A DNA stretch of 64,000 bases, taken from assembly GCA_029862975.1 (NCBI GenBank), contig JAOTWP010000006.1, forward strand, positions 1-64,000, in the 5' to 3' direction. Both the position numbers and the translations under genes were made by a program. Below, in pieces: positions 9,302-62,670 of the stretch. Position 1 is the first letter of the stretch, and the number at the start of each line of letters is the position of its first letter. A model generated the notes under the pieces. It did no database searches. It was not told where the DNA came from and saw only the letters and a list, made by a program, of their open reading frames with translations. Source of the stretch: Acidobacteriota bacterium (GTDB lineage: Bacteria; Acidobacteriota; Thermoanaerobaculia; Multivoradales; JAHEKO01).

Positions 9302-9574
9302 GTGAAGCACTTCTCCTGGAGCCCGGAAAAGAACGAACAGCTCCTCCGGGAGCGCGGCATCACGTTCGAGGAGATCGTGTTTCACATCGAGCGGGGCGAC
9401 GTTCTCGACCTTCTCGAACACCCGGACCGGAAACGGTATCCGGGGCAGCGCGTCTTCATCGTCGAGGTAGAAGCGTACGCGTACGTCGTTCCGTTCGTCG
9501 AAGCGGAGTCCGAAGTGTTCTTGAAGACCATCATCCCGAGCCGCAAGATGACGAGGAAGTACCTGGGGGACTAG
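9302..9574 (+). CDS. brnT: BrnT family toxin (RelE-like mRNA interferase)
   Basis: This 90-residue protein has the BrnT (DUF497) pattern: FSWSPEKNEQLLRERGITFEEI at the N-terminus, D-V-L-D-L-L-EHPDR, GQRVFIVEVE and a C-terminal KTIIPSRKMTRKY. BrnT is a RelE-fold ribonuclease that blocks translation and is neutralised by BrnA. Start GTG 9302 gives the family length, and there is no Shine-Dalgarno site, consistent with a leaderless start. It precedes its antitoxin by two bases, the usual toxin-first order of brnTA. Local base composition is less GC-rich than the neighbouring operons. Confidence 0.88.
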   Translation: MKHFSWSPEKNEQLLRERGITFEEIVFHIERGDVLDLLEHPDRKRYPGQRVFIVEVEAYAYVVPFVEAESEVFLKTIIPSRKMTRKYLGD

Positions 9575-9576
9575 TC

Positions 9577-9852
9577 ATGGCCGAGCTGGACAAGGAAGAG
9601 CGCGAAGTGCTGGCAGCGGTCGAGGCCGCAGAGTGGAGGTCCGTTCGCGACAAGGAGAGGGAGATGGCTCGCTACGGCGAGTATGCGAAGGCCACGTTTC
9701 GCAAAGACCGGCGCATCAACATCCGGATCTCGACCAAGGATCTCGAGGCGTTGCAGAAGAGGGCCCTGCAGGAGGGCATTCCGTACCAGACTCTCGTTGC
9801 CAGCGTGCTGCACAAGTACGTGTCGGGACGTCTCGCAGAGCGCGAAGCCTGA
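9577..9852 (+). CDS. brnA: BrnA-like antitoxin (ribbon-helix-helix/CopG type)
   Basis: This 91-residue protein starts at ATG 9577, two bases after the toxin stop. An acidic, charged N-terminal half (toxin-wrapping region) is followed by KDRRINIRISTKDLEALQ and QEGIPYQTLVASVLHKYVSG. This is the DNA-binding ribbon-helix-helix typical of antitoxins paired with BrnT. It should bind the toxin and repress the operon from the palindrome at 9277-9289. A larger open frame starting at 9286 is the same frame read from an earlier start within brnT and is not preferred. Confidence 0.82.
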   Translation: MAELDKEEREVLAAVEAAEWRSVRDKEREMARYGEYAKATFRKDRRINIRISTKDLEALQKRALQEGIPYQTLVASVLHKYVSGRLAEREA

Positions 9853-9878: not shown

Positions 9879-10109
9879 CTATCTCGCCGCGCAGCAGGCC
9901 TCCGCCATCCTGCGCATTGCCGCGGCGCGGGAAGTGGCGGTCTTCGATTCGCCGGTCTCGGAGACAGAACCGGATGACGAGTCCTGCCCGGTGTCGCAGA
10001 AGGCCTCTTTCATCCGTTCGAAGATGGGGCCGCAGCATTCGGGCATGATCTTGCCGACGCGATCGCTGCGGGCCTCGTCCGGCGCCGCATTTCGGTTCTT
10101 GTCACCCAT
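9879..10109 (-). CDS. Small CC-motif protein divergent from ECF sigma factor
   Basis: This 76-residue soluble protein of unknown family starts at ATG 10109 with a strong Shine-Dalgarno site (AAAGGAGA, spacing about 7). It carries MPECCGPIFERMKEAFC near residues 22-38 and a C-terminal ACCAAR, giving two CC pairs and one further Cys, with a low-complexity Ser/Gly/Thr linker between. This suggests metal binding or thiol-redox sensing, but no known domain is recognised. It is divergent from the sigma factor gene and has upstream a copy of the CGACC-N12-GTGTATCCC element found again upstream of the small gene at 11010. It converges on brnA with a 26-base gap. Confidence 0.7.
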   Translation of the reverse strand: MGDKNRNAAPDEARSDRVGKIMPECCGPIFERMKEAFCDTGQDSSSGSVSETGESKTATSRAAAMRRMAEACCAAR

Positions 10110-10179
10110 GGTTCGTCTCCTTTCGCTTCCCGTCGTTTCAGCCGATGGGTCTGCTGCTGAGACGAAACGGACAGGCGAA

Positions 10180-10205
10180 GGGATACACAGCTCGAGCTCG
10201 GGTCG
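10180..10205 (-). promoter_or_regulatory. Candidate ECF-sigma promoter, copy 1
   Basis: On the minus strand this reads CGACC, twelve bases, then GTGTATCCC. The identical pattern with identical spacing occurs at 10939-10964 on the plus strand. It ends 70 bases before the ATG of the small CC-motif gene. Taking CGACC as the -35 and GTATCC as the -10 gives spacing within the range of ECF promoters. Confidence 0.5.
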
Positions 10206-10352
10206 GTGGCGGGTTCGAGTCGCGCTACTCGAATGGGCGGGGCGTTGCCCTCCGAGGAGGCGTTGCGGAACGAGCCGCCGGGGAGTAGAGGTGAGATCTG
10301 TTGCCGCGCACCACCCGCCGGCCTGCGGCGTCAATGCGACCCGAAGGATGAA

Positions 10353-10946
10353 TTGACGATCACTGCCCCGGAGTTGGCGAACCAGCTCGCGCCCCAGCGG
10401 GCGAGGATCTACCGCTACATTCTCGGCATCGTTCGCGATGTGGCGGAAGCCGAGGATCTGACGCAGGAGACCTTGCTCCGGGCCTACGCCAAACGGTCGA
10501 CGTTGGACGATCCGGCAAGAGTGGCGTCATGGCTCTACCGCATCGCCACGAACGTTGCCTATGACCGGTTTCGGCAGGCCGCCTACCGCCACCGGCCGCG
10601 ATCGCTCGCGCAAGAGGGCGGCGCAAGCGGCCCGGACAATGCCGAGATTGCCGTCGATCCCGGACCGCGGCTCGACAAGATGATGGAGCAAAGGGAGATG
10701 AGCGCCTGCGTTCAGGACTACATCGCGGCTCTCCCGGAGTCTCATCGAGCCGTGATCCTGCTGCACGACGTGCAGGGCCTGACGAATCCGGAGATCGCCG
10801 AGATGCTGGATCTTTCGCTGGCAACGGTGAAGATCCGCTTGCATCGGGCGCGCAACAAGCTGCGAGCCGCCCTCGAATCGGGTTGTTCGTTCGAGAGCGA
10901 CGAGCGTGGGGTGAGGACCTGCGAGCCCAGGGGTACAGCGACCTAG
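10353..10946 (+). CDS. ECF RNA polymerase sigma factor with Cys-containing C-terminal tail
   Basis: This is a sigma-70 family extracytoplasmic-function factor of about 197 residues. Region 2 (ARIYRYILGIVRDVAEAEDLTQETLLRAY, then WLYRIATNVAYDRFRQ) and region 4 (LPESHRAVILLHDVQGLTNPEIAEML followed by ATVKIRLHRARNKLR) are complete. The tail after region 4 has two Cys (GCSFESDERG then RTCEP), as in an ECF subgroup thought to sense redox or metal. The start is uncertain: TTG 10353 after GAAGGA is preferred; earlier in-frame starts would add an unrelated leader. No classical anti-sigma gene adjoins it. The neighbours are three very small proteins, and the second copy of the candidate promoter overlaps its 3-prime end. 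Confidence 0.88.
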   Translation: MTITAPELANQLAPQRARIYRYILGIVRDVAEAEDLTQETLLRAYAKRSTLDDPARVASWLYRIATNVAYDRFRQAAYRHRPRSLAQEGGASGPDNAEIAVDPGPRLDKMMEQREMSACVQDYIAALPESHRAVILLHDVQGLTNPEIAEMLDLSLATVKIRLHRARNKLRAALESGCSFESDERGVRTCEPRGTAT

Positions 10947-10964
10947 CGCATCGAGGTGTATCCC
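10939..10964 (+). promoter_or_regulatory. Candidate ECF-sigma promoter, copy 2
   Basis: CGACC-N12-GTGTATCCC overlaps the stop codon of the ECF sigma gene and precedes the small membrane-protein gene at 11010 by 45 bases. It is the only other occurrence of this bipartite pattern that I noticed in the window, and its twin (10180-10205, minus) precedes the divergent small gene. Two matching 14-base patterns around one sigma gene suggest that they are its targets. Confidence 0.5.
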
Positions 10965-11009
10965 CGAGGCCGGCGATTTCGTCTCCACTTGCGGGAGGAA
11001 ACGAGCGGT

Positions 11010-11213
11010 GTGATTCAAGAGAGCCTGACGAACGCGACACTACACTACTGGTCTGGAGGAGCCGACGATGGGCTGATCTTCCTCCTGGGGGGCGCTTGGG
11101 AACTGTACGAGATCACGGTGCCGCTGCTGCCCTTGCTGCTGATTGGTGCCGGGCTGGTCCTGCTGATCGGCGTGCTTGGCGGCAGACATCTGGCAAGGCG
11201 ATCACACGGATGA
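11010..11213 (+). CDS. Small membrane protein downstream of ECF sigma factor
   Basis: This 67-residue protein starts at GTG 11010 with GGGAGGAAA upstream (spacing about 9). Residues 38-56 are a single strongly hydrophobic segment (VPLLPLLLIGAGLVLLIGVLGG), preceded by a shorter hydrophobic patch and followed by the basic end RHLARRSHG. No family is recognised. Its position after the candidate promoter at 10939-10964, with a good ribosome site, supports it as a real gene. It could be a small membrane regulator or stress peptide; function is unknown. Confidence 0.55.
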   Translation: MIQESLTNATLHYWSGGADDGLIFLLGGAWELYEITVPLLPLLLIGAGLVLLIGVLGGRHLARRSHG

Positions 11214-11243
11214 CCTTCAAGGGAGACAAAGGAGACTTGAAAG

Positions 11244-11402
11244 ATGGCGGCATTCGCAAACTCGATCGAACGACATCACAGACTCATCATCGCGGTGCTT
11301 TCATTGATCATCGTGGTGTTCGTGGTCTCGTGCACGTTTCACGAGGTCATCCCGATCTGCCACTGGCTCTTCAAGTGCGATCACTCGATGCACGCTGGCT
11401 GA
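11244..11402 (+). CDS. 52-residue His/Cys-rich membrane or lipoprotein candidate
   Basis: This short gene starts at ATG 11244, nine bases after AAGGAGAC. The product has a basic N-terminus (ERHHR), a hydrophobic segment (LIIAVLSLIIVVFVV), then S-C at a position resembling a lipobox. A short mature part follows: CTFHEVIPICHWLFKCDHSMHAG, written here only to show spacing as C-x2-H, C-H, C-D-H and a terminal H. Three Cys and four His in about 22 residues suggest metal or haem binding outside the membrane. It is 30 bases after the preceding small gene, so they probably share a transcript. No homologue is recognised; confidence rests on the ribosome site and composition. Confidence 0.5.
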   Translation: MAAFANSIERHHRLIIAVLSLIIVVFVVSCTFHEVIPICHWLFKCDHSMHAG

Positions 11403-11545: not shown

Positions 11546-12526
11546 TCACACGGTGACGACGACCTTTCCGCGGGCGTGTCCCTGTTCGAGGTAGCGGATC
11601 GCCGCGGGCGTCTCGGAGAGCGGGTAGGTCCGGTCGATGACCGGCGTGACCCTGCCTTCTTCGATGAGCTCCTTCAGGAAGTCCAGGTCGCGGACGTTCA
11701 TCCTGGCGACGTAGAAGGCGATCCGCTGGCTCACGAAAGGCGACGACACGAGCGCCCGGGCGAGCCGTGCCATGGGCCCGAGCCAGCGGCCGCCTCCCGC
11801 TCCGCTGCTCGGCACGAGCGTTCCCTTGCGGGTCAGGGCGCGCCTGCAGTCCGACGCGGACTGTGTCCCCGCCAGCTGGAAGACGAGGTCGTAGCGCCGA
11901 CCCCCACGGGCGAAGTCCTCGCGGGTGTAGTCGATGACCCGGTCGGCGCCGAGCGAGCGGACCAGCTCCACGTTCGGCGTGCTGCACACGCCCGTCACGT
12001 GGGCTCCGAACGACTTGGCGATCTGCACCGCGAACGTCCCCACCCCGCCCGAGGCGCCGATGATCAGGACCCGCTGGCCGTCCTGGATCCGCCCGTGGTC
12101 GCGCAGACCCTGGAGGGCCGTGAGGCCGGCGACGGGCACCGACGCCGCCTGCTCGAACGTCAGGTTGGCCGGCATCGGACACAGCCGGTCCTCGGGCGCG
12201 CATACGGAGTCGGCAAGGCTGCCCCCCCGGCATCCGGCGACGTCTCCGAACACCGCGTCGCCGGGGCGAAACCGGGTCACGCTCGCGCCGACCCTCGCGA
12301 CCCGCCCCGCGAGGTCGGCGCCCAGGCCGTGGGTCTTGGGCCGGCGCAGGCCGCTTTGCAGGCGCATCAGGTACGGCTCGCCCCGCAGGAAATGCCAGTC
12401 GAGGGGATTGACGCTCGCGGCGCGGACCCGGACCAGCACCCCGTCATCGCCCACCTCCGGCTCGTCGATCTCCGCGAGCTCGAGAGCCTCGGGCGGGCCG
12501 TACTCGCCGCAGACGATCGCCTTCAC
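11546..12526 (-). CDS. NAD(P)-dependent MDR oxidoreductase (zinc-independent alcohol dehydrogenase-like)
   Basis: This 326-residue medium-chain dehydrogenase/reductase starts at GTG 12526. The GroES-like N-terminal domain shows VRVRAASVNPLDWHFLRG and HGLGADLAGRVARVG. The Rossmann domain shows VLIIGASGGVGTFAVQIAKSFGAHVTGVCS at about residues 147-176, with AxxGVG for the cofactor. The Cys/His zinc ligands of classical alcohol dehydrogenases are absent from the expected sites, and the end (YLEQGHARGKVVVTV) is typical of the quinone-oxidoreductase/AST1-like branch. It likely reduces a quinone or enone substrate in the cytosol. It is divergent from the cotransporter gene that starts at 12799; the bases 11403-11545 before its stop hold nothing recognisable. 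Confidence 0.9.
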   Translation of the reverse strand: MKAIVCGEYGPPEALELAEIDEPEVGDDGVLVRVRAASVNPLDWHFLRGEPYLMRLQSGLRRPKTHGLGADLAGRVARVGASVTRFRPGDAVFGDVAGCRGGSLADSVCAPEDRLCPMPANLTFEQAASVPVAGLTALQGLRDHGRIQDGQRVLIIGASGGVGTFAVQIAKSFGAHVTGVCSTPNVELVRSLGADRVIDYTREDFARGGRRYDLVFQLAGTQSASDCRRALTRKGTLVPSSGAGGGRWLGPMARLARALVSSPFVSQRIAFYVARMNVRDLDFLKELIEEGRVTPVIDRTYPLSETPAAIRYLEQGHARGKVVVTV

Positions 12527-56091: not shown

Positions 56092-56613
56092 ATGAGTCCC
56101 TCGAGACGCCAGGAGAGCTTTCTCGATGAGGTCCGGCCCCATCAGGGGATGCTGCGCCGCATCGCCGCGGCCTACGCCGACAGCTTCGAGGACCGACGAG
56201 ATCTCCTGCAGGAGATGCTTCTCCAACTGTGGCGGTCCTACCCCGGCTATCGCGGCGACGCGAAGTTCTCCACCTGGATGTACCGCGTCGCCCTCAACAC
56301 CGCTCTGCTGGGGTGGCGTCGCCGCTCACGGCGGCCGGAAGGCCGGCTGAGCGCCGACGATCGCGTCCTCGACAATCTGCCCGGAATCGACCCGGACGAC
56401 GAGGCGGTCCGCGCGCTGTACACGGCGATTCGGGCCCTGCCCGGCGTCGATCGGGCGATCGTCGCGCTGTGGCTCGAAGGTCACTCCTACCGGGAGATTG
56501 CCGCCATCACCGGACTACGCCGCTCGAACGTCAGCGTGCGGCTGGTCCGCCTCAAGGAGAAGCTGCGCGCTTCGGTCGAAGGCGAACCGGAGCCGCGAGC
56601 GGCGCAACAATGA
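56092..56613 (+). CDS. ECF RNA polymerase sigma factor
   Basis: This 173-residue sigma-70 family factor starts at ATG 56092. Region 2 is AYADSFEDRRDLLQEMLLQLWRSYPGYRGDAKFSTWMYRVALNTALLGWRR. Region 4 is ALPGVDRAIVALWLEGHSYREIAAITGLRRSNVSVRLVRLKEKLR. The D-R-R-D-L-L-Q-E version of region 2 is common in ECFs paired with small membrane partners. Its stop overlaps the start of the next gene (ATGA), which encodes a membrane protein and probable anti-sigma partner. A GCGTAGCGT sequence 35 bases upstream is shared with the promoter region of the M36 protease gene. Confidence 0.92.
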   Translation: MSPSRRQESFLDEVRPHQGMLRRIAAAYADSFEDRRDLLQEMLLQLWRSYPGYRGDAKFSTWMYRVALNTALLGWRRRSRRPEGRLSADDRVLDNLPGIDPDDEAVRALYTAIRALPGVDRAIVALWLEGHSYREIAAITGLRRSNVSVRLVRLKEKLRASVEGEPEPRAAQQ

Positions 56614-62058: not shown

Positions 62059-62670
62059 CGTCTCGTCTCCTCGGTGGCGCCACCCCGGGATTGGGATGCG
62101 CTCGGCGGCCGGCAGCTCGGCGCTCCGGCCTTCACCCTTCGGCAGCTCGGCGATCTTGGATCTTCGTGGCGGGTCATCCGTCGCGCAGAAGCGAGGACCC
62201 GTGGCTTTGCGACACTGGCTTTGACCAGCTGTGCCGTTGTCGGAGCGTCTTGTAGCTATACACAATGCAGAGTCTGCCACCAGACCCGAAGGGGCAGGCG
62301 GACCCACCCACCCCTAGAGCTAGCCAGCGCCCGGGACCGACGCGCCCGGGGAGGCCTTGCCGCTCGAGGGCCGTCGAGGGCCAGGACCAGCACCTCGGCC
62401 CGGCCTCGGTCCTCGCTCGAATAGCTGAGGAAGATGTCGCTCACCGCGCTCCTGTCGCTCCGAGGCTTGATGGACGCTCGGGGAGGGGCCGCCGGCGCCC
62501 CCGCTCATGACTCCCAGGCCGATGGGCGCAGTCTACCGCGGTCTACTGCCGCATCTCCGGGGACCACGCCGGCACACGCAGCGCTCTCGGACCCTCCGGT
62601 GACTCCGGCGATGCCCGTCTCGCTCGACGTCTTCTACAGGGGGCCGCGTGACGCGTTCGAGCGTCGCATC
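62059..62670. other. Gene-poor interval with a TIR remnant
   Basis: There are 612 bases between the DUF7450-like gene and the lipoprotein gene. Apart from the TIR-domain remnant at 62256-62444 no coding signal is convincing. A short AT-richer patch (TAGCTATACACAATG, about 62251-62265) stands out in the GC-rich background, and TCTACCGCGGTCTAC near 62533 is a short near-palindrome. Plus-strand open frames here read as Pro/Arg/Ala-rich noise. Confidence 0.45.
62256..62444 (-). pseudogene. TIR domain N-terminal fragment
   Basis: From GTG 62444 (GGAGCG upstream) the frame reads MSDIFLSYSSEDRGRAEVLVLAL. This is the standard first strand and helix of a bacterial TIR domain (D-I-F-L-S-Y-S-x-x-D-R). 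It then turns into GPRAARPPRARRSR noise. In the next frame the sequence continues as TALERQGLPG, matching the A-L-E-R-Q-G that normally follows, so a frameshift has occurred. No further TIR blocks or effector domain are found. This is a broken NADase or signalling gene. Confidence 0.6.

Follow-up and report, generated by a model that had tools for sequence, protein, structure and literature searches.

A compact ECF sigma regulon of small cysteine-rich proteins in an Acidobacteriota genome, with a putative self-sensing sigma factor

Several described ECF sigma factors offer a background against which the locus reported here can be viewed. Those of group ECF41 (Ecf41Bli, R. sphaeroides ECF41 and S. 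meliloti RpoE9) use the promoter TGTCACA-N16-CGTC and have a CxxC carboxymuconolactone decarboxylase (CMD) as target (PMC3426412, PMC6180224). An adjacent CMD, oxidoreductase or epimerase gene is the sole target in this group. CorE and CorE2 of M. xanthus (old ECF44, new ECF238) work without an anti-sigma factor and show metal-dependent activity (PMC3107203, PMC8999054), and OrbS of B. cenocepacia (ECF243) carries a short C-terminal cysteine cluster just after region 4.2 that serves as an on-board Fe(II) sensor (PMC9023288). With ECF41 our locus shares the lack of an obvious anti-sigma factor, a C-terminal extension of the sigma factor, a local set of targets, the N16 spacing and the CGTC −10 box; a CMD gene of the ECF41 target family also lies beside several of the related, tailed sigma factors described below, although there is none at our locus. 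Like CorE, our sigma factor has cysteines between sigma2 and sigma4 as well as in its C-terminal extension, and, as in OrbS, the C-terminal cysteines come soon after region 4.2.

The locus lies in the window, by which we mean the whole 64 kb stretch of DNA analysed, from an Acidobacteriota bacterium (GCA_029862975.1, contig JAOTWP010000006.1, positions 1–64,000 of the forward strand). An initial annotation of this DNA had proposed a compact sigma regulon, and all four frames of the locus are present at the positions it had given. The features are as follows.

9879–10109, minus strand: CC76, a soluble CCGP-type protein of 76 residues, divergent from the sigma gene (frame and homologues)
10161–10187, minus strand: P1, TGTATCC-N16-CGTC, presumed CC76 promoter (motif; the same site stands 5' of the CC gene in L009, at 4820 on the minus strand, and in L011)
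10353–10946, plus strand: ECF sigma factor, sigma2 and sigma4 with a C-terminal extension (Pfam, alignment, tree)
10707–10709, plus strand: codon of Cys119 in the first helix of sigma4, within EMSxC (invariant, 14/14)
10884–10922, plus strand: tail residues 178–190, with C178 and C190 invariant and a predicted beta-hairpin, 178–182/188–192 (alignment, AlphaFold2)
10957–10983, plus strand: P2, TGTATCC-N16-CGTC, just 3' of the sigma stop codon, presumed promoter of the downstream small genes (motif)
11010–11213, plus strand: 67-codon membrane frame, C-terminal half of a ~120-aa family, with homology from 11070 (alignment)
11244–11402, plus strand: 52-aa membrane or lipoprotein-like protein, associated with the regulon but not sigma-specific (conserved core)

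Neither sigma-70 promoters nor terminators were found in the window between 9800 and 11600. The zinc-type dehydrogenase at 11549–12520 is a neighbour in convergent orientation and therefore does not stand behind P2. On the other side, a pair consisting of a BrnT-like toxin (under the Pfam cut-off) and a CopG antitoxin adjoins the regulon at 9302–9852 (plus strand), and farther away the window holds a second, untailed ECF sigma factor at 56092–56613 (plus strand) and a c-di-GMP-I riboswitch of 49 bits at 62138–62245 (minus strand).

The sigma factor, whose gene has TTG as its likely start codon, consists of sigma2 and sigma4 only, both above the Pfam cut-offs (Sigma70_r2, 54 bits; Sigma70_r4_2, 63 bits), which makes it an ECF (group 4) sigma factor. 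Region 4.2 is followed by a tail of ~20 residues, GCSFESDERGVRTCEPR, which is covered by no solved sigma structure among the best matches, and a fold search with the whole protein returned ECF and other sigma-factor domains and nothing that accounts for the tail. C119, C178 and C190 are invariant in 14 of 14 aligned tailed sigma factors. In the AlphaFold2 model, which is of moderate confidence (tail pLDDT only ~62–73), C119 belongs to the first helix of sigma4, and the tail hairpin has C178 on one strand and C190 on the other. Other sensor extensions are longer than this tail, which could have a structural role instead. In a tree of 93 sequences, the 17 tailed sigma factors form one clade (support 96/88) that spans five phyla, Acidobacteriota, Gemmatimonadota, Myxococcota, Pseudomonadota and Eiseniibacteriota, and sigma factors with long extensions are placed apart from it. 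A scan of GTDB genomes and 59 relatives gave homologues of 55–85% identity in Acidobacteriota and of 42–57% identity outside the phylum, in Gemmatimonadota, Myxococcota and Muproteobacteria. The family is sporadic: it occurs in 6 of the 59 relatives and, among 297 genomes drawn from the phylum, in a single further genome besides the source. A dN/dS of ~0.2 indicates purifying selection on the sigma gene; the 52-aa protein and the conserved portion of the 67-codon frame likewise come out at ~0.2, and CC76 at ~0.6.

The locus also carries a promoter signature, which the initial annotation had missed. In a DNA comparison, the spacer between CC76 and the sigma gene is an inverted match to the stretch just 3' of the sigma gene, and the element so found, TGTATCC-N16-CGTC, has the layout of ECF promoters. 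The 64 kb hold two perfect copies, at 10187–10161 (minus strand) and 10957–10983 (plus strand), and no further copy within one mismatch, where a second-order Markov model predicts no perfect and 0.5 near matches by chance; genome-wide, GTGTATCY-N16-CGTC occurs at P1 and P2 only. Two matched promoters, both at the locus, thus bear out the proposed compact regulon. Because the copies in the window helped to define the motif, only the other loci constitute independent tests. Within 700 bp, TGTAWC-N16/18-CGTC was present at 14 of the 17 tailed sigma loci and at none of the 76 untailed ones (Fisher p = 5e-14, uncorrected for relatedness), and nearly all tailed loci have an equivalent site directly 3' of the sigma gene or 5' of the divergent unit. 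The post-sigma site equivalent to P2 is seen in L009–L015, L090/L099 and L103, with one mismatch in L013 and L090/L099, and in L017 the spacer is one base shorter. A purine-rich, TGGAGGAGACGG-like stretch follows directly upon the −10 box of this post-sigma site in L090 (2016 onward), L010 (3367), L011 (1545) and the window (10957).

The link between motif and genes also extends to copies unlinked to the sigma gene. Going from motif to gene, unlinked matches stand before a Cys-membrane gene and the 120–126-aa membrane family (G001, G011), a CC76 homologue (G010) and a DGC zinc-binding protein (G345); the two remaining unlinked matches in sigma-bearing relatives (G011, G342) have no recognised family behind them, and six sigma-less genomes gave two matches, both in G015 and neither 5' of the regulon families. 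Going from gene to motif, a protein search with CC76 led to an unlinked copy (G011:C221) whose start is preceded by a perfect motif. We regard the regulon and its putative promoter code as well supported by sequence, and infer that TGTATCC-N16-CGTC promoters are used by this sigma factor.

The divergent protein, CC76, has five cysteines (C25, C26, C38, C72 and C73), shows the pattern CCGPxxExMxxAF ... MRRMxxxCC and, like the 67-aa and 52-aa frames, matches nothing in Pfam or NCBIfam above cut-off. Its homologue in L009 is 53% identical, and CC homologues stand divergent from the sigma gene in L009, L010 and L011. Homologues occur in 5 of the 6 sigma-bearing relatives, and the 53 relatives without the sigma factor gave one marginal match (E 0.003). 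For the sigma and CC genes, then, both the conservation of the frames and the association with this sigma subgroup speak for the regulon. The initial annotation had further claimed that no recognisable anti-sigma gene is present, which agrees with our searches: no anti-sigma family was found among the window proteins (Pfam/NCBIfam) or the neighbours tested at other loci (Pfam). Its suggestion that the small proteins might themselves be anti-sigma peptides fared less well. They look like sigma outputs instead, because CC homologues occur unlinked behind the motif and none was recognised at L012–L015, L090 or L103. CC76 is likely a sigma-dependent output, and an obligate anti-sigma role for it is unlikely, given its unlinked position in G010 and G011.

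That the small Cys-rich proteins are conserved was likewise confirmed by homologues in relatives, whereas the downstream frames called for revision. Residues 21–67 of the 67-codon frame align with the C-terminal half of a membrane protein of ~120 aa, of which L011, L014 and L103 have intact copies. Judging from this alignment, the frame, earlier taken for a small gene in its own right, is a truncated copy: of a gene of ~120 residues only the 3' half survives. In comparison with L011, ~800 bp have been lost from the window, so that a whole 100-aa Cys-membrane gene and the 5' half of the gene behind the 67-codon frame are gone; the downstream operon of the window is partly decayed. The 52-aa protein has C30, C39 and C45 and four His after an S-C pair, is 60–77% identical in relatives, keeps the core FHxVIPICHxxFxCDHxMH in all six copies and, to judge by its dN/dS, is under purifying selection. 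It is conserved, but its link to the sigma factor is loose: the gene is solitary and lacks the promoter motif in G009, G010 and G014, and in G009 the sigma factor was not found (assembly 86% complete). It is therefore better described as regulon-associated than as a defining member.

In relatives the regulon is wider, with Cys-plus-membrane, LiaF-like membrane, DGC zinc-binding, CxxC AhpD-like and CxxC orphan families. The muproteobacterial locus L018 combines a CCGP-like protein, a 165-aa CxxC orphan, a small YgaP-like membrane protein (a likeness judged by eye, not a family match), a DGC protein and a CPMAMC membrane protein, with TGTAAC-N17-CGTCTA sites 5' of the CCGP-like, orphan, YgaP-like and DGC units. 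For the 165-aa orphan, the predicted structure (pLDDT 67) gave generic Rossmann-like matches, none below E 0.001, and the search for it in the source genome, which had no positive control, came back empty; a plasmid collection held no homologue of it or of DGC, and no close tailed sigma factor. CxxC proteins of the CMD/AhpD-like kind lie near the sigma gene in L010, L012, L013, L017, L156 and L157, the last two assigned by eye from a CxPC motif. In the AhpD-like (CMD) genes at L010 3845–4246 and L012 5624–6024, the codon for the second Cys of CxxC is replaced by an in-frame TGA, and a hairpin follows shortly downstream (in L010, CTTCCGC-GGT-GCGGAAG); by itself, its folding energy does not differ significantly from that of shuffled sequences. 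CxxU selenoproteins with this arrangement are known (PMC9312934), and the gene is likely to encode a selenoprotein within the regulon. At L104 (1684–3889) the motif is followed by a CCQMMHH membrane protein similar to LiaF-TM, slightly under the Pfam cut-off, and by a Ser/Thr protein kinase whose N-terminus is Cys-rich; at L020 of Eisenbacteria (5570 onward), a tailed sigma factor and the motif are followed by a frame that contains a CxxCH haem-type motif, possibly a c-type cytochrome.

The reading that we favour, at a probability of roughly 0.6, is that the ECF sigma factor is a one-component system that senses by itself and has a small regulon of its own, the trigger being either a thiol-binding metal(loid) or a redox change. 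C119 in the first sigma4 helix and C178/C190 in the tail hairpin would form a putative metal/metalloid site or redox switch, which would take the place of an anti-sigma factor. The triggered sigma factor would then bring RNA polymerase to TGTATCC-N16-CGTC promoters, in the source genome beside the sigma gene only, and the products would be the soluble CCGP protein and Cys-plus-membrane or Cys/His membrane proteins, to which DGC, CxxC AhpD-like/CMD and CxxC orphan proteins would be added in relatives; these thiol-rich products may bind, buffer or reduce the triggering agent. We propose self-sensing because the cysteines are invariant, no anti-sigma gene was recognised, and CorE (PMC3107203; PMC8999054) and OrbS (PMC9023288) provide precedents, and we propose a thiol-binding metal, metalloid or oxidant as signal because the outputs are Cys-rich. 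The sigma factor's own cysteine triad is a better sensor candidate than the small proteins. Of the metal, haem or redox module first suggested, the metal, thiol and redox flavour is retained, and haem sensing was dropped, as no haem motif or haem gene was recognised.

It is unlikely that the downstream CPxxxC-transmembrane protein acts instead as a mini anti-sigma factor and redox or metal sensor, with a merely structural sigma tail. This protein is the most regular neighbour 3' of the sigma gene (L010–L015, L018, L103), and its Cys cluster ahead of a membrane segment recalls membrane anti-sigma factors in outline; its N-terminal part, however, measures only ~25–45 aa and it matches no Pfam anti-sigma family. 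In the window the copy has been lost and the sigma factor is still under purifying selection, and in G001 and G011 homologues are found behind copies of the motif that are unlinked to the sigma gene. Anti-sigma factors are often autoregulated, so this last position, taken for the motif alone, does not decide against such a role. Conserved cysteines mark most of the regulon families, and in the sigma factor they are kept on the first sigma4 helix and on both tail strands across five phyla, which makes it improbable, too, that the sigma factor is controlled at its own transcription by another regulator, with cysteines that hold structural zinc and a non-metal signal such as envelope stress. No conserved regulator gene was recognised beside the sigma gene, although control of this kind governs several ECF groups without an anti-sigma factor (PMC8999054), and the LiaF-TM similarity in L104 and the m120-type and YgaP-like membrane proteins would be in keeping with it. 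An ordinary drifting locus, in which an ECF sigma factor of an already defined group happens to lie beside unrelated small frames, would explain the ~800 bp lost from the window and the 52-aa gene found elsewhere without the sigma factor, but is highly improbable in view of a dN/dS of ~0.2 in three of the four frames and of a promoter signature and gene families that recur jointly across phyla, unlinked copies included.

Under the self-sensing reading, a number of uncharacterised tiny cysteine proteins would share one regulator and one promoter code and would gain partners that can be tested; the few known sigma factors that seem to bear their own sensor, CorE and OrbS, would be joined by one whose tail is a minimal pair of strands, and the compact promoter pair is a candidate orthogonal switch. 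A bolder reading, somewhat less probable than not, is an ECF group not yet described and scattered widely, whose sigma factor would itself sense a metal(loid) or electrophile at a three-Cys site of sigma4 and tail. It would turn on orphan mini-proteins (CCGP, CPxxxC-membrane and Cys/His membrane peptide) along with DGC, CxxC and AhpD-like selenocysteine proteins, a detoxification system of new composition.

Compared with the known systems, the tail of ~20 residues with two Cys differs from the large SnoaL-like extension of ECF41, and SnoaL gave no Pfam match in our sigma factor; the −35 box is TGTATCC/TGTAACA and not TGTCACA, and the targets are mainly tiny Cys proteins. With no SnoaL domain and a different −35 box, the sigma factor is therefore not a member of ECF41. 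SigZ (TIGR02959/PRK09637) is among the best NCBIfam matches and reaches residue 186, into the tail; membership of TIGR02959 was rejected, at 111 bits against a cut-off of 168.65. Unlike CorE, the sigma factor has a single cysteine, C119, and not a CXC near the linker, a hairpin with only two invariant tail Cys and not a Cys-rich domain, and no recognised copper exporter genes beside it. OrbS, an iron-starvation sigma factor with four clustered Cys and siderophore targets, differs in both Cys pattern and regulon. Our sigma factor is most likely a CorE/OrbS-like self-sensor with an ECF41-like local regulon: the regulon is real and compact, its composition is new as far as searched, and its regulator is of a known kind.
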